64,000 bases of DNA. Origin: Brachionus plicatilis (taxonomy: Eukaryota; Rotifera; Eurotatoria; Ploima; Brachionidae). The notes beneath the pieces are model-generated. The model searched no databases. It saw only the letters and a list, made by a program, of their open reading frames with translations, and was not told the DNA's origin. Positions 1 to 20,762 of this stretch are shown here, piece by piece. The stretch spans positions 957,679-1,021,678 of the forward strand of contig QEOQ01000226.1 in NCBI GenBank assembly GCA_010279815.1. The letters are read 5' to 3'. Made by a program: the position numbers and the translations under genes. The stretch's first letter is position 1, and each line of letters begins with the position of its first letter.

Positions 1-550
1 TTAAAGATTTTAAAAGAAGAATTGCAGCAATGAATTTTTAAAACAAGAAAAACTTATAAATTTATTTTGAAATTATTCAAGAAACAATCAAATTCAATCC
101 TGATGATCTTTTTGGCATATAAAAAATATTCTATCGCTCTACGTAGTTAGTTTACCAGATTCATTGAGGACAGCATTCTAAAAAAAAGCATGTAAAATTA
201 ACATTTAATTTATATTCTTTCAGATCTTATATCCAAATCCAAAAAAAAAATTCAATCTTTTATTTTAATTTATCCATATTTTTTTCCAAATTTTTTAATA
301 CTGGGCCACTAATTATGATGAACTTAAATATCTGTTGCAAATTTGATAATTTTACATTCCTCTAAAATTTTGTTCAGTTTCATTTTTAATTTTGGAAAAT
401 TGGAAAATTGATTTAGGAATCCTTTATTTTTTTTATGTCTTTTTTCTCAAATTTTTAAAGAACTAGCGCATTTTAAACAATTTTTGATTAAAAAACTAAA
501 ACGTTTTGTAAAGAATTTTATTTATTTTATTAAAATAAACTCATTTTAAG
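1..550. other. AT-rich non-coding, probably PCYT2 intron
   Basis: No exon was recognised here. The stretch ends in an AG (549-550) directly before the last PCYT2 exon, so it is most simply the last intron of that gene, continuing beyond the left edge of the window. Confidence 0.5.
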
Positions 551-760
551 GAGCCGAAGAAACAAGGAAAATTTAAAGTGGTTGATAGTGATAATAAACT
601 GACAACTGCTGATATTGTGGAGAGGATAATTGCTCACAAACTGGACTATGAAAAGAGAAACAGAGAAAAAGAATTAAAAGAGGCCAAAGTGTTTCAGATT
701 CATAGTGAAATGAAAAAAAAAGAGCCGAATCAATATAAAGCAGTAAATTTGAATCAATAA
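551..760 (+). CDS. PCYT2: Ethanolamine-phosphate cytidylyltransferase, last exon (partial gene)
   Basis: Seen: an AG acceptor at 549-550 opens a frame beginning EPKKQGKFKVVDSDN, followed by LTTADIVERIIAHKLDYEKR, a lysine/glutamate-rich tail and a TAA at 758-760. Known: this matches the C-terminal end of the second cytidylyltransferase domain of PCYT2 (human EPKRRGIFRQIDSG, then LTTDLIVQRIITNRLEYEAR). PCYT2 makes CDP-ethanolamine from CTP and phosphoethanolamine in the Kennedy pathway of phosphatidylethanolamine synthesis. Only the last 69 codons are present; the catalytic HxGH and signature motifs lie to the left of the window. A possible poly(A) signal AATAAA is at 904-909. The assignment rests on remembered family sequence, but the match runs over about 40 residues, so I am fairly sure. 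Confidence 0.85.
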   Translation, partial: EPKKQGKFKVVDSDNKLTTADIVERIIAHKLDYEKRNREKELKEAKVFQIHSEMKKKEPNQYKAVNLNQ

Positions 761-2593: not shown

Positions 2594-5293
2594 TTAATTC
2601 AAATTTTTGGAATCCAACTTGTGGACAAAAATTTTTCTTTTCATGTCAAAGCTATTTCGGTGGTGGAACATGTCCCAGTGCATTTCTTTCAGCTCATATT
2701 CTTCACACTCTTTCATCTTTTCTTCTAATTTGGATGCCAAAAATAGCTCTCTTTTGGTGGCAATAAACTTTTCCATCATACCTGCATTCATAGAATAGCT
2801 TGAAGCAAAAAATTTTACTTTGTCCATAAAACTGGTATTTGTGACATTCTCAAATGATCCTAATTTCGAGTCCAAGTCATCAATTAAATTAATTTGAACA
2901 GCTTCTTTAGTGATAAGTGGCCGAGCACTTTCTTTTAAATACTCAAGCATAGATTTTCCGATACGTTTTGGAGCTGTTAAAGTGTGCAGTTCCGAGCCAA
3001 ATAAGCCCATTTTTTTGTAATGAGGATTGAAAACAACACCGCTCTTGGCAAACACAAAATCACTAGCCAAACTCAAGTAGACTCCACCAGCTCCTGCATT
3101 TGCTTGAATTGCTGAAATAGTCATGATATCTCTGAGCAAAATTATCTCTTTGGCAACATTATTTATGGCTTTGATATTTTGCCAACTTTCTTCAGCTGGA
3201 TCGGGAGAGTTCTCAATAACATTCAGGTGAATTCCATTCGACCAGTTTGTTTCACTGCCTGCTAATACCAGCACGTTTATATCTTGCTTTGAGCATTCCT
3301 TGATAGCTCTCAAAAGTCTATTGCACTTCAAAGTGTCCATTGCACCATTATAAAAGTTAAAATACAAGATACCAATTCTGTCTACTTTTTCGAAACTAAT
3401 TTCTTGGTAAGTATTCGAATCTGGCAGTGGAAGAATGTCCAATGAACTTTCCTGAATTGATTGGAATCTTTCAATTTGGCAAAGCTGTAAAGTGGATGGC
3501 AACTTGATTGGACTGGTATTTTCCTTAGATTTAAATGATCTCATACACGAGAACCAAACTGAACCATCTTTTGTTTTGACGCACACAGCATCGCCTCTTT
3601 TAGCAAAAATTTCACCTATTGAAATTGATGACGCTGGCTCTAAGTAATCTTCTTTGCATGCACCAAAAACAAATCGAGCAATTTTTTGATCTTTAATTGT
3701 TAATTCAGATTTTAAACCTGGCTGTGTATCAGCAGCGTTTGACTTGCTCAAAATAACGCTTGTGCTGTCCAGTGACCAATTTATGGATCTTTCTGAGTCG
3801 GACAATCTAATAGTCCTGTGCAAATTACCTTTTACATCTGTCTTTGAAAAATCAAGAGGCTCAGAAACAAAATTGGCATCACCAAACTTTGAAATGCAAT
3901 CAACAACTAATTTCTCTGCTGTTTGGCAAACAAAACTATTGTACAAGTTTGCTTTGGTGTAATTTTTTGGCATTTGGAAATTTTCTGTTGCCCAAATATT
4001 ACCAGCGTCCATTTCTCTGCTAGCTTCCAAAACAGTGACACCCCACTCTTTGCTATTGTTCAGTATGGCCCAATCCAAGGATGACGGACCACGATCACCT
4101 TTTACACCAGGATGAACAATCAGGCACTTTATTTTCTCGTAGATTTGCTTTGGAATAGCTTTTTTCAAAAATGGACAAACAATCAAATCAGGCTTGAACT
4201 CTTGGACAGCATTGATCATTTGATCATCTGTTTTGGCCACTTCAAAAAGGCATTTGTGTCCCAGTCTTGACAGCACTTTTTCAATATTTTGAGTCATGGC
4301 ATTGTAACTTGAAGAAAAGAGGAGAACTTTCCAATTTTTTTCATTTTTATTACTAGTATAATTTGATTGTAAAAATAAATGAAAATTGTTCTTTTTGTGA
4401 AGTTCTTCAATGATGTTGGATGTTTTGGCGCCGTTTTGAATTAGACAAGCATTTAGGACATTGTGTGCCAAAGTGGCTGTGGTCAGGAGACCAACACCAC
4501 CTGGAACTGAAGTGTAGTGCGCAGATTTTTCATAACAAGACGGATGAAAATCACCGTATATTTTTTGCTCATTTTTACTACTTATACCAATATCAATAAG
4601 TATTGATCCTTTTTTTATTAATTCTGGACTAATATGATGAGGTTTACCGCATGCTGAAATCAAAATGTCAGCTCTAGAAGTAAGTTCTTTGACATTTTCT
4701 GTAAAAATATCAACTGATGTGACAGAAGAATGGAATGGATGGCAAGCTAACATGTGAGCCAAAGGCTTACCACTCAATTCTCCTTTTCCAATTATTGCTA
4801 CATTTTTTCCGAGTGTTTGAATACCATAATAGGTCAGAAGAGCACATATGCCTTGTGGCGTTGCTGGTTTCAGCCAATTTGGATCATTTGTGTAGATTCT
4901 ACCTGATGAAAAAGTACTCAATGCATCCACATCTTTGCAAACATCAATATTTTCAGTAATGTCTTGTGGCTTAAAATTGAAAGCACTGGCTAAAGGAAGT
5001 TGGACAAAAATGCCACTAATTGATGGATCAAGGCTCAGCTTTTGCACTAAGCTAACAATTTGATCTTTTGTAAAATCACTTTTGATTAGGTGTACTTCGG
5101 TTTCAATACCAACTTTCTTCAATAAATCAATTTTTTTATTCACATAAATTTTGCTTTGAAACAGAGGCTTGCTGTCATTGTCCAAAGTGAGCAAAATACT
5201 TACACGCGGTCTAAAATTATATTCTTTGATTTTTCTGCTAGCAATCGCCAGAATTTCATTCGCAACTTTTTTGCAATTAAATTTAGTTGACAT
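2594..5293 (-). CDS. FolD-HypX fusion: methylene-THF dehydrogenase/cyclohydrolase + HypX (CO-forming) protein
   Basis: One intronless 899-codon frame, ATG at 5291-5293, TAA at 2594-2596. Residues 1-285 form a full FolD domain: YVNKK at 50-54, VQLPL at 97-101, KDVDA at 120-124, PATPQGI at 143-149, GKGELSGKP at 169-177, PGGVGLLT at 264-271. Tyr50, Lys54, Gln98 and Asp121 match the E. coli FolD catalytic residues as I remember them. After a linker (286-318), residues 320-475 are a formyltransferase domain with VHPGVKGDRGPSSLDWAI (393-410) and EMDAGNIWAT (427-436). Residues 476-600 are the C-terminal formyltransferase-type region. Residues 630-830 are an enoyl-CoA-hydratase fold with FNFYNGAMDT, WSNGIHLNVIE, ANAGAGGVYLSLASD and NPHYKKMG. 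The order after FolD is that of bacterial HypX/HoxX, which makes CO from 10-formyl-THF for [NiFe]-hydrogenase. Inferred role: methylene-THF to formyl-THF to CO or formyl transfer. No signal or targeting peptide is evident. The lack of introns is odd beside its neighbours. Confidence 0.93.
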   Translation of the reverse strand: MSTKFNCKKVANEILAIASRKIKEYNFRPRVSILLTLDNDSKPLFQSKIYVNKKIDLLKKVGIETEVHLIKSDFTKDQIVSLVQKLSLDPSISGIFVQLPLASAFNFKPQDITENIDVCKDVDALSTFSSGRIYTNDPNWLKPATPQGICALLTYYGIQTLGKNVAIIGKGELSGKPLAHMLACHPFHSSVTSVDIFTENVKELTSRADILISACGKPHHISPELIKKGSILIDIGISSKNEQKIYGDFHPSCYEKSAHYTSVPGGVGLLTTATLAHNVLNACLIQNGAKTSNIIEELHKKNNFHLFLQSNYTSNKNEKNWKVLLFSSSYNAMTQNIEKVLSRLGHKCLFEVAKTDDQMINAVQEFKPDLIVCPFLKKAIPKQIYEKIKCLIVHPGVKGDRGPSSLDWAILNNSKEWGVTVLEASREMDAGNIWATENFQMPKNYTKANLYNSFVCQTAEKLVVDCISKFGDANFVSEPLDFSKTDVKGNLHRTIRLSDSERSINWSLDSTSVILSKSNAADTQPGLKSELTIKDQKIARFVFGACKEDYLEPASSISIGEIFAKRGDAVCVKTKDGSVWFSCMRSFKSKENTSPIKLPSTLQLCQIERFQSIQESSLDILPLPDSNTYQEISFEKVDRIGILYFNFYNGAMDTLKCNRLLRAIKECSKQDINVLVLAGSETNWSNGIHLNVIENSPDPAEESWQNIKAINNVAKEIILLRDIMTISAIQANAGAGGVYLSLASDFVFAKSGVVFNPHYKKMGLFGSELHTLTAPKRIGKSMLEYLKESARPLITKEAVQINLIDDLDSKLGSFENVTNTSFMDKVKFFASSYSMNAGMMEKFIATKRELFLASKLEEKMKECEEYELKEMHWDMFHHRNSFDMKRKIFVHKLDSKNLN

Positions 5294-10600: not shown

Positions 10601-13600
10601 TTAAGAAAGATATTTTTTTTTAATTATGTCCAAATGTATTGCTACTTCTCCAATATGAGGTCTTGACTTTGGCTCATGATGCCAACACATTTCCATTAAA
10701 TTCCAGCAATCTTGGTCAAAATGGGCCAATCTTTCTGGCCTAACTCCTCGTTTAACCGAAGACCATAAATCATCTTTAGTACTACACTGTTCGAAATTTT
10801 TTGGCAAAGAAACTGATCCTGCACAAATGTACCAGAAGAGAATTCCAAATGCATAGATGTCAACCGAGTTGTCATACTTTGCATCAAACATTTTAGGACA
10901 CATGTGCACTGGTGTTCCCACTATAGACCCAGAGATCATAGCATTAGGTTTACAAAATCCCAAATCGGTTATTTTAGCTCGATTGATCGAATCAAGCTTA
11001 AAAATATCTTGTAAATTTTTTTATTAATTTAAAAATAATTGTATACCAAAACATTTTTTAGTTTTATATCGCGATGGATAAGACCCAATCCATGTAAATA
11101 CCTAATGCCTTCAACCACATCAATGCTTATTTGAAGACGAGCTTTCCAATCGAGACCACTTTTAAGTGCTTGATAAAGATCTCTCTTCATTGCTTCCATT
11201 ATTAAAAGAACAGCCGGTGACTTGAATTCAAAATGATAAATAACATGTTTTAAAATATTTTAAATTGCTTCAAAATAAAATTAAAAATTAATATTATTGA
11301 ATTGTAAAAAATTTATCTTAATTAATCAGTTAGTCCATCCTAATCCCAGGAATAAAGGTTAATTGAAATCGATAGAATCAGTAAAATAGTACATTGTTCA
11401 AATTTTTTCTTTTTGTTTAAAATTGATTACTGACTGTGGACTTTTATGCAATATTATATTTTTCTTTTTAATTTTAAATTAAAGATATTTTTATCAAGAT
11501 TTTTTAGAGTTGGTCAAAAGTCAAAGTCAAGTCAAAACTTTAATTTTAATTTTTTTTTATTAATTCCGCGTCAAGGGTTTTAGCTAAAAGTTATTATGTC
11601 TCCATCTTTAAACTTTTAAATTTAAAGTTTAATGCAAATAATTTTAATGAAATAAAAAAATTTTTAGAAAAGTATGGTCTCTATTCTTTTCAAAATAGAA
11701 TATTTAAAAGAATGATTACTTTTTCATTTAAATGTCTGTTCTATAATAACTCACCTTTAAATTTAAAAGAATAACTGATAAAAAATGACTCAAGAAAATT
11801 TAAATATAGTTTTAGGAACATGAATAACAAATTGCAAAATGGTGAAAAAACATTTGAATATTTTAACTCAGGACTCACTGCTTTGTTATTAAAAAATTTG
11901 AATTGTTTAACTTGAATATTTTGTTATTAAATATTTTCAAATAATTTTGGATTCAAATTTTTTTATTTTATTTTTTCTAATTTTTTACTAATTAAAATTT
12001 TAGATGAATACTTTTATATAGAATTTAAAAAAAAATCAGTCTTAATGATAGAGGCACTAGCCTGTTGATAAACCCTGAAATTGAAAGTCTAAATCACTTA
12101 AATCAAAAAATTTTTAAGTCAAAGTCTGACTTTGACTGACTTATTCTGACCTTAAACTTGGACTTTTGACCAACTCAGAGATTTTCTTAAATCAAAATAA
12201 TTCGATTTTCTTTTAAATTTTTTGAAACCTAATTCTGATAAAATTTAAAAAAAAAATCAATTTACAAAATAAAAAAGATTCTGATAGCTAAAAAATTTTT
12301 TTAAATAATTTGATTTAATACCTAAACATTTTGGAACCTAAAAAAATATACTCCTTTTTATTATTATTATTTTGATCCTATAAAGCTAGAAATAAATAAA
12401 TGATAAAAATAAAAATATAAGAATTTTTTTTGGAATAATTTCATAGAATATTTTAAATATCACATTTAAAAAGTTAATTTGAAATTTTGATTAAATAAAA
12501 GGAAAAATAAACAAGTAAATAAGGCACACGAAATTAAGAAAAATATTAAATAGATCCAAAATTATTTAAAAGATTTTTTTTCTGTCGAGGCTAAAATTTA
12601 CTGAACTCAATTTGCAAAAAAAAATAAGCAAAATTCAACTTTATTTCCTAGTTAATCATAAATCCTTAAAATCTACTATCAAAATCTTTTTATAAAAATA
12701 CTTACATTTCCATTTCCGTATGTATAATCAATTACTGACTTAAAATTTAACACTTTAATATTTAATATTCAAGATAGTTTTTATAAAACTAACCCCGATC
12801 AATCTAACAATTCGATCATGGTCAGCTATTTGTCTAAAAACAAGCAAAAATAAATTTCGAATTTTATTTTAAGAAAATTTCAATTTTTACTTGGTATAAT
12901 GAAATTCAAGAGCCAAGTCATTCCAGTGTTTTTCGTCTGGTGGAACAACTGATTTTACAGCTAGATTCTCGTACTTTCCCCATTTTTGACAACTGTACAC
13001 AACTCCATACTGACCACGGCCTATTTCTTTGCCCAAAGTAGGAAATCCATACAAAACATAATCTTCAAGTGAAGTGGATTCAAGACCCAGTTTGGCGAAT
13101 TTGGGTGCTAAGACTTTTCGAATTAGAGATTGATTTTCTTCATTTTTTTCCAGTCTACCAGCATGCTTGGCCTCAAGCAATTTTAACGAATAGGTAAACT
13201 GACTGTGCGATATCCTTAGTTTATCTTTCATTTGGTTGCAAAGAATTTTTGCCAATCTTAAATAAAATAGATTTGAACCTTATTAGTTATGATAGAGTTC
13301 GAACGATTTTTGAAAATAAACAAATAGGCCCATATTGTTATAAAAAAATAAATGAAAAGCTACAAGGATTTCATTTTTTAGACGTCTTGAGAAATAAAAA
13401 AATTATTGAACAGCAAAAATTATAGCATTGAGTTATTTAATTTAGAATTGGTCATTAAATTATTTTGAGATTAAGAAAAATTTAAATTAATACTAATTTT
13501 AATTAATTAGCGGAATTAATTAGCAGTGATCGGGGTACCCGAGAATATCAATATTAATTTTAAAAAAATTTAAAAAGAAGACCCTTTAGACAATAGAAAA

Positions 13601-18940: not shown

Positions 18941-20762
18941 TTAAAAAGTTTGGTCACCTGATCGCAAAATTTACTTTAAAAAAATCTTCAGTAAAAAATA
19001 TGAACACATGATTTTGAAATTGACTATTAAAATTGGATAATAATTATTGTAGTAGCAATTTTATTTTTTATTAGTAGCAAAAAAAAGAATTAAATATTAT
19101 ATCAAAAAGTAGCAAAAATATTTTTTTTAGTAGAATAAGAAATAATAAAAAAAGTGTGAAAAAAAAAGGAAAAAAGAAAAGACAATCAATTAATCAATTA
19201 AATTTGTTTGTTTGTTTTATTCGTTTGTTTTATCTTTACGTGGACGTCCTCTGCCTCTTTTTTGAACTAATTGAGTTGAGTTGAAATTTACTGCTTGTAA
19301 AACAAACAAGTTATTCGATTCTGACTGAATTGTTTGAGTTTCTGTTGTAATTGGGATATCAGTTTGATTTGAAGAAGTTGGCATTGAAAAAAGTTCTTGA
19401 TTGATTGGACCCATTGAATTTCTTTCGAGTGCTGGCAATGCTTTCTTTCTGCGACCTTTCGAAGCGTTTTTCTCAATGCGTAAATCTAAAGTTGGAAATG
19501 ATAGTAAACCCATATTGTAACCGACACCAATTACATGTTTGCAAACAAATTTTTTCTTACAACACGGACACGAACATTTACTCAACTGCCAACACTGCTT
19601 GCTCATTTCAATTATTTTATGAGAGTCATTCCATTCTATATATTCATCAAACGTATCCCAACTATCCTTATTCAAATACGAACGACAACTTTCTTTTGAA
19701 GCCTCAAAACTGCATTTTTCTGACGAAACCATACATGTTATCATATCTTCTTCTTCTTTTATTTTGACAATTCGTTTCTTTGATTTGCACCATTTAAAAC
19801 CTAGCGTCCATTCATGGGTTGATATTTCAGGCATTGTTTTGAACTTTGTTGTTGTTAAAAAATTTGGATTCCTGTCACGTGACCAATTTTCTATCAAATT
19901 GTCCATAACTCTCACAAAATCTCTCAATGGTAGTCGATCTCTTAATGTCGCTTTTTCTTTAATAGTATTGTTGATTGATTCGATACCATTGTTTGTACTT
20001 GGATAACCCTCTGCATAACCTTCATACCATCCAATTGTATTATCTGTCATCCACTGTTGTCTAAAATAGGCAAAAAACGAATCGATATGTTGATTGTTTA
20101 ACACACCCCTAACCTCTTAACTTTTTACTACTAATAAAATAAAATTAACACCTTTTGCAAATAAAAAAACTGCTAAAAAAAATGAATTATCTATTTTATG
20201 ATCTGCTATTCAAAAAAAATATAATTGCTACTAGAAGAAATAAATTTGCTACTAGCGAAAATATAAGCCATTAAAATTTACATAGTCAATTTTTATGGAA
20301 AAAAAGAATTTATATTTTTTCTAAAATTTTTTGAGTCATTTTTGATACCACTTTTATTATATATTTCATTTAATACTAATTTATTTTATGAAATTTTTTT
20401 CAATTAAAAAATAAATGGATTTAAATGAATTCCTTGAGATCGGCTCTTTAAATAAGCTAAACATGTTGAACTTAATAAAGAGAACTTTATATGTTGGGGT
20501 CCTCAAAAAATTTTCGAGACTGATGAGTCTGTTTTTAATAGGCATATATTCTATTGGATTCTTTAAAAATTTTTATTTGGATTTATAATAATAATTTAAG
20601 TAAATTTTGTGATCACTTTTTTTTGCTTTTGGAAAATAAATTTTTTTTGTTTTAAAAATTGACTATGTAAATTTTAATAGTCAATTTCAAGATCATGTGT
20701 TCATATTTTTTACTGAAGATTCTTTTAAGGTAAATTTTGTGATCGGGTGCTCAAACTTTTAA
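18941..20762 (-). mobile_element. MULE (Mutator-like) DNA transposon, internally deleted
   Basis: Inverted ends: TTAAAAAGTTTGGTCACCTG, then GATCGCAAAATTTACTTTAA and CTTCAGTAAAAAATATGAAC at 18941-19008, against the complementary series ending CTCAAACTTTTAA at 20762. The TIR is over 90 bp and includes GAACACATGATxTTGAAATT and GACTATTAAAATT. The inner TIR motif also recurs at 20270-20297 and 20590-20620, so the element has internal duplications. Target-site duplication not clear. Confidence 0.75.
19217..20122 (-). pseudogene. MULE transposase, C-terminal half with SWIM zinc finger and AT-hook
   Basis: The frame is open from just after a stop near 20128 to the stop at 19217-19219. It reads FFAYFRQQWMTDNTIGWYEG, then STNNGIESINNTIK, the end of the MULE DDE catalytic region. 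CSCPCCKKKFVCKHVIGV follows, a SWIM-type zinc-binding motif (CxC...CKH). The end, QKRGRGRPRKDKTNE, is an AT-hook. The N-terminal half, with the first catalytic Asp residues, is absent: the DNA upstream of 20122 is non-coding. The gene therefore encodes at most about 300 residues against 600 or more for intact MULE transposases. The remaining frame has no internal stop, so truncation is fairly recent or the fragment is kept. Confidence 0.8.

Follow-up and report, generated by a model that had tools for sequence, protein, structure and literature searches.

HypX (HoxX) of bacteria forms formyl-coenzyme A (formyl-CoA) and releases carbon monoxide (CO), activities that have been demonstrated by others and are described in a review (PMC12134894). 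According to a proposal by Muraki et al. (2019, PMC6802093), formyl transfer in HypX relies on residues His74, Asp80 and Asp109, and the decarbonylation step on Tyr416 and Glu426. In this study, we analysed a window of 64,000 nucleotides from the rotifer Brachionus plicatilis, in which one open reading frame on the minus strand (2594..5293) encodes a FolD enzyme followed by HypX. The rotifer protein resembles the HypX/HoxX proteins of Aquifex (PDB 6j0p) and Ralstonia in both HypX domains, the five proposed catalytic residues, and Gln15 and Asn306. In contrast, it lies behind a fused FolD in a eukaryotic host, carries Asn at the position of Arg131, and occurs in a genome in which neither a hydrogenase large subunit nor HypD was detected. 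Based on the sequence, we consider it somewhat probable that the fusion makes CO via formyl-CoA from methylene-tetrahydrofolate (methylene-THF), for a purpose unrelated to hydrogenase.

The protein has already been deposited, under the name ‘hydrogenase maturation’ transferred from bacteria. No publication on a eukaryotic HypX or a FolD–HypX fusion was found in the titles and abstract starts of the open-licence literature; PMC2216082 contains both ‘HypX’ and ‘eukaryot’, but HypX appears solely in its reference list. What is new here is a HypX, recognized by descent and active site, that carries a fused FolD and stands outside any detected hydrogenase system.

Architecture and active sites of the rotifer fusion

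The frame runs uninterrupted for 899 codons from an ATG start and encodes 899 residues, while the plus strand over the same interval contains many stops. An earlier note on this DNA had read FolD followed by HypX from the letters alone; Pfam and the match to 6j0p confirmed this order and placed it on the minus strand, and the motifs cited in that note (FYNGAM, WSNGIHLN, NAGAGG, NPHYK and the HypX signature) are all present in the frame. The FolD part, methylene-THF dehydrogenase/cyclohydrolase (residues 6–283; 4445..5278, minus strand, as are all codons and domains below), consists of THF_DHG_CYH (residues 6–123, 1e-18) and THF_DHG_CYH_C (residues 128–283, 1e-41), and the first 290 residues align with bacterial and human FolD-type structures. 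A linker that is partly helical in the AlphaFold model (residues 284–319; 4337..4444) leads to the HypX part (residues 320–892; 2618..4336), which matches Aquifex aeolicus HypX over its full length (E = 2e-115), both HypX domains being covered. Within this part lie the formyltransferase domain (Formyl_trans_N, PF00551; residues 349–457; 3923..4249; 1e-11) and the enoyl-CoA hydratase-like, putatively decarbonylating, domain (ECH_1, PF00378; residues 659–810; 2864..3319; 1e-11); Formyl_trans_C fell under the Pfam cut-off (20 vs 21.1 bits). The AlphaFold model of the whole chain is confident (mean predicted local distance difference test score 89.9, predicted template modelling score 0.77). Inspection of the N-terminus revealed no evident targeting presequence, which suggests a cytosolic location.

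Alignment to 6j0p showed that all five of the proposed HypX catalytic residues are conserved: His394 (codon 4112..4114) corresponds to His74, Asp400 (4094..4096) to Asp80, Asp429 (4007..4009) to Asp109, Tyr759 (3017..3019) to Tyr416 and Glu768 (2990..2992) to Glu426. In an alignment of 119 HypX rows, His is found at the first of these positions in 118, Asp at the second and third in 119 each, Tyr at the fourth in 114 and Glu at the fifth in 119. The CoA-site residues Gln15 and Asn306 are conserved as well. In the FolD part, the catalytic residues of FolD enzymes, Tyr50, Lys54, Gln98 and Asp121, are present.

Distribution and descent of the fusion

Two protein searches were performed over 5.8 billion proteins, with 8000 candidates scored and the best 120 listed in each. 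The closest match was ‘hydrogenase maturation [Brachionus plicatilis]’ (P0001), with 99% identity over the whole length, and together with the 3.2-Mb contig described below it bears out the animal-type genome that the earlier note had supposed. Among the matches listed, the order FolD-then-HypX was found in B. plicatilis, in Brachionus calyciflorus (partial), in Gigaspora, Racocetra, Cetraspora, Dentiscutata and Scutellospora (partial) of the Gigasporaceae, and in P0007, P0010 and P0133 (partial). Nine Gigasporaceae proteins (P0002–P0006, P0008, P0009, P0011 and P0012) share 41–48% identity with the rotifer protein over 92–99% of its length. Judged by motif positions, with the FolD motif unmatched in some rows, the FolD-first order was seen, among 172 collected proteins, only in the rotifers, the Gigasporaceae and P0007, P0010 and P0133. 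The earlier note had left the spread of the fusion open and had thought HypX-like entries in other invertebrates possible; the fusion does extend to B. calyciflorus and the Gigasporaceae, but no named animal besides Brachionus appeared among the matches listed. An animal-only invention was rejected, since Gigasporaceae fungi share the fusion, and a viral carrier was likewise not supported (106 pattern matches in viral_contigs, no relatives). The Gigasporaceae proteins agree with that of the rotifer in domain order and in the clades of both domain trees, and thus represent the same family; they differ in being fungal, some species holding multiple copies and some copies being shortened. Separately, the gene model of Racocetra fulgida P0002 continues into a class-V aminotransferase (PF00266, approximately residues 964–1085), either a further fusion or a model error.

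The reverse order, HypX-FolD, was found in Chloroflexi (P0057 from Ktedonobacter, P0063, P0102 and L053). These proteins carry the same two enzymes in one chain, but their FolD is C-terminal and belongs to another FolD clade, and their HypX (row L053) lies outside the rotifer/fungal clade. Given the opposite domain order and the different FolD clades, a common origin with the Chloroflexi fusion was not supported.

In a HypX tree of 87 rows, the rotifers, the Gigasporaceae, P0007, P0010, P0014, P0106, P0019 and P0020 formed one clade of 17 rows (Shimodaira–Hasegawa-like approximate likelihood ratio support 100); P0014, P0106, P0019 and P0020 lack FolD in the listed form. The five catalytic residues are complete in 16 of these 17 rows, the exception being P0013, whose gene model has missing pieces and shows a gap at the His. 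A second tree of 44 rows recovered the rotifer/Gigasporaceae clade with 14 rows (support 100/100) and attached it among seven bacterial rows (100/98). Four of these rows are Bacteroidota, three of which were assigned from the taxonomy of their names. In the quick tree of 87 rows, the clade stood apart from the remaining 70 rows and was not nested among the bacterial ones. We infer that the ancestral HypX gene was of bacterial origin and laterally acquired. In a FolD tree of 41 rows, the fusion FolDs also formed a single clade (16 rows, 100/100), apart from the Chloroflexi FolDs, from the MTHFD1-type gene of the rotifer (FolD plus formate-THF ligase, L082) and from its other FolD gene (L083); derivation of the FolD part from the rotifer's other FolD genes was thus not supported. 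Compared with FolD/MTHFD in general, the rotifer fusion has both Pfam domains and Tyr50, Lys54, Gln98 and Asp121 in common, but it differs in this clade of its own and in a GKG loop. The two halves of the fusion seem to have travelled together, with at least one transfer between lineages being likely.

Two further proteins, P0112 and P0147, have the order HypX-FolD; P0112 has a presequence-like start, and both are perhaps from protists and possibly a second eukaryotic HypX lineage. A separate origin of their HypX was assumed at first, but an approximately unbiased test did not reject a tree that groups them with the HypX of the rotifers and fungi (p = 0.68), and the tree constrained in this way had the better score.

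The proposed folate-to-CO route and its alternatives

The rotifer genome (assembly of 102.9 Mb in 173 contigs) was searched as a whole with profiles, in six frames and exon by exon, along with 14 control genomes. A single copy of HypX was detected. The rotifer genome gave no match to the [NiFe]-hydrogenase large subunit (PF00374; 5 of 14 controls matched) or to HypD (PF01924; 4 of 14), HypA, B, C, E and F not being searched for. The earlier note had expected no hydrogenase in this eukaryote and had named a hydrogenase with its Hyp set as evidence against its proposal; for the two families searched, the expectation held. The rotifer protein is thus HypX by descent but apparently not a hydrogenase maturation factor here, and, since no hydrogenase was detected, CO (or formyl-CoA) would need another purpose.

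According to the route that we favour, the FolD half would oxidize 5,10-methylene-THF to 10-formyl-THF with NAD(P)+ and feed it to HypX in the same chain; the HypX half would move the formyl group to bound CoA via His394, Asp400 and Asp429; and Tyr759 and Glu768 would decarbonylate formyl-CoA to CO. The net reaction would be methylene-THF + NAD(P)+ + water to THF + CO + NAD(P)H. The joining of FolD to HypX in two opposite orders argues for functional coupling, and the absence of PF00374, PF01924 and PF01126 (haem oxygenase) matches from the rotifer genome also speaks for the route. With respect to the earlier note's proposal of a folate-to-CO route without hydrogenase, the architecture, the five residues and the lack of PF00374 and PF01924 matches stand in its favour, while the CO output and its use are putative. 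The most likely use, which we put forward tentatively, is that of a messenger; for this role speak the haem-NO/O2-binding guanylate cyclase domains encoded in the rotifer genome. Disposal of one-carbon units is less likely.

Several observations weigh against this route. Arg131, a CoA-diphosphate contact in Aquifex HypX, is Arg in 92 of the 119 aligned rows, but Asn in the rotifer, and of the 17 rows of the clade 15 have Asn and 2 have Ser; Arg542 of Aquifex HypX is replaced by Lys; and the Arg9 position is Ser in the rotifer, although Arg is absent from this position throughout the 119 rows. A HypX mutant in Arg9, Gln15, Arg131 and Arg542 is described as retaining CoA binding (PMC6802093). 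In the FolD part, the GKG loop occurs in 14 of 15 fusion rows (the 14 that the pattern matched), compared with GRS in 10 and GRG in 1 of the 11 comparison FolD rows, out of 19, that the pattern matched. This loop, presumably the nucleotide loop of FolD, may alter or weaken nucleotide binding, and with GKG instead of GRS the preference for NAD or NADP is uncertain. The trait is also patchy, Brachionus being the sole animal named among the matches listed. Finally, haem oxygenase is the usual CO-producing enzyme named in animals, and although its profile (PF01126) gave no match in the rotifer genome (3 of 14 controls matched), the search was made exon by exon, with three bacteria as positive controls, and a finely split gene could escape it; the same type of search does find the intron-split animal HNOB family, the haem-NO/O2-binding guanylate cyclase domain (PF07700), with five matches.

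The enzyme might instead end at formyl-CoA or free formate, acting as a folate-draining formyl-CoA synthase or a 10-formyl-THF hydrolase for one-carbon overflow. The formyltransferase half alone would yield formyl-CoA, as far as the published account of HypX indicates (PMC6802093). Apart from the fusion gene, the exon-wise search detected Formyl_trans_N in one other short exon of the rotifer genome, a lower bound, so enzymes of 10-formyl-THF turnover may be few. To our knowledge, HypX has no role other than hydrogenase maturation, which also counts for this alternative. However, all 17 rows of the clade retain the equivalents of Tyr759 and Glu768, the decarbonylase residues, for which an enzyme ending at formyl-CoA would have no need. 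We regard an end at formyl-CoA or formate as rather unlikely.

To a passenger gene of recent acquisition, or a decaying relic without function, we assign little probability. The patchy distribution would suit it, as would the Gigasporaceae entries that look shortened or lack motifs (P0011, P0012, P0121 and P0122), some of them perhaps gene-model errors. The rotifer frame, however, is intact over 899 codons; only 10 of 899 residues differ between the two B. plicatilis records, none of them catalytic; and the shorter homologue of B. calyciflorus, approximately 60% identical where aligned, shows four of the five catalytic residues, with the fifth in a gap.

Less probable still is that the CO, instead of being a signal or a waste product, serves to mature an unrecognized iron-carbonyl enzyme. 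The use of HypX-made CO described in the literature is indeed as an iron ligand (PMC6802093, PMC12134894), but the rotifer genome has no match to PF00374 or HypD. We know of no candidate iron-carbonyl target.

Bacterial contamination or misassembly, which the mainly bacterial distribution of the HypX family might suggest and which the earlier note had raised against itself, is very unlikely to a practically negligible degree, because the gene (C2:960275-962971) lies approximately 960 kb inside a contig of 3,198,056 bases with animal-type exons on both sides, is recorded separately for B. plicatilis and for B. calyciflorus, and has a guanine-plus-cytosine (GC) content (0.358; third-position GC 0.311) that lies between the extremes of five other frames from the same genome. 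On one side, a plus-strand frame (539..760) matches the end of ethanolamine-phosphate cytidylyltransferase (3elb, E = 6e-5, 35 residues; no Pfam match) and is probably the last exon of an animal gene. On the other, protein-kinase frames on the minus strand (10601-11020, 11029-11259 and 12887-13279, the last below the Pfam cut-off; together 10601..13279) were read as exons of one animal gene. Farther along, a frame of 295 residues (19217-20104, minus strand) has a SWIM-like cysteine/histidine end and by eye resembles a MULE-type transposase; it has no Pfam match.

HypX and MHYT sensors in bacteria

A scan of genome_contigs yielded at least 572 confirmed HypX relatives, of which the 80 nearest loci were kept and their neighbours clustered. 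Loci were called hyp-linked when HypA, B, D, E, F or a hydrogenase large subunit lay within 10 kb or to the contig end; by this definition 43 loci were hyp-linked and 37 were not. Of the seven neighbour clusters first counted as hyp genes, one turned out to hold an NtrC-type regulator, and leaving it out changed neither number. Whole genomes were searched with PF00374 for 26 of the 37 hyp-free loci: 14 had no match (3 of these being metagenome-assembled genomes) and 12 matched, as did all three hyp-linked controls. Eukaryotes are thus not alone in having HypX without a hydrogenase. The five catalytic residues are kept in all 14 genomes free of PF00374.

In Bacillus aerolatus and Peribacillus huizhouensis, both free of PF00374, a gene encoding MHYT-PAS-GGDEF-EAL directly follows HypX (L002:2828-5323; L004:11733-14153). 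The MHYT domain of CoxC is reported to respond to CO, with copper required (PMC11347149). The Bacillaceae pair is a candidate module linking endogenous CO to cyclic di-GMP in bacteria. Among 43 genomes of the family of P. huizhouensis, no second HypX was found.

In the Methylococcales, HypX was present in 86 of 301 sampled genomes, and an MHYT histidine kinase is located two genes from HypX in L030, L033 and L068. An MHYT profile built from five of these proteins placed such a kinase two genes from HypX in 10 regions out of the 20 closest to the query (L122 repeating L033) and in none of 20 in a second set; the 43 hyp-linked loci showed no MHYT gene. In L068:9932-14615, L116-L123, L126 and L127, the cluster consists of HypX, a response-regulator-like gene and the MHYT histidine kinase, and the stretch around it contains no hyp genes. 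We rejected Methylococcales HypX as a hydrogenase-free case, since 19 of 20 tested genomes hold a PF00374 match elsewhere, some of the weak ones being, at a guess, relatives such as complex-I-like proteins; the Bacillaceae pair is therefore the clearer case. For the rotifer, the bacterial association of HypX with MHYT would support CO signalling by analogy only.

Other features of bacterial HypX loci were also observed. Two tested Methylococcales HypX proteins carry a C-terminal hemerythrin domain (L139:5816-7996 and L147:5763-8204), and other long HypX frames of this order (720–868 residues) may carry it as well. One gene family occurs in 24 of 32 Methylococcales HypX loci (L124-L155), directly upstream of HypX in 23; the tested member, L138:1049-2149, which is oddly placed, and the similar L072:8646-9668 are DJ-1/PfpI-AraC regulators. 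Mycetohabitans rhizoxinica, a Rhizopus endosymbiont, carries hypX on pBRH01 (L084, 9995-11749), in a 21-kb stretch that contains no annotated hydrogenase gene; acyl-carrier-protein and acyl-CoA genes lie nearby. The genome of its relative M. endofungorum gave no PF00374 match.

Taken together, it is possible, though we propose it with reserve, that some animals and arbuscular mycorrhizal fungi make folate-derived CO through a laterally acquired FolD–HypX as a signal independent of haem oxygenase, with hydrogenase-less bacterial HypX beside MHYT sensors as the prokaryotic counterpart of a general folate-to-CO signalling chemistry. If true, an animal in which neither haem oxygenase nor hydrogenase was detected would have a second way of making CO, fed by folate one-carbon units. 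This would shift where biologists seek CO, and HypX would gain a role outside hydrogenase assembly.

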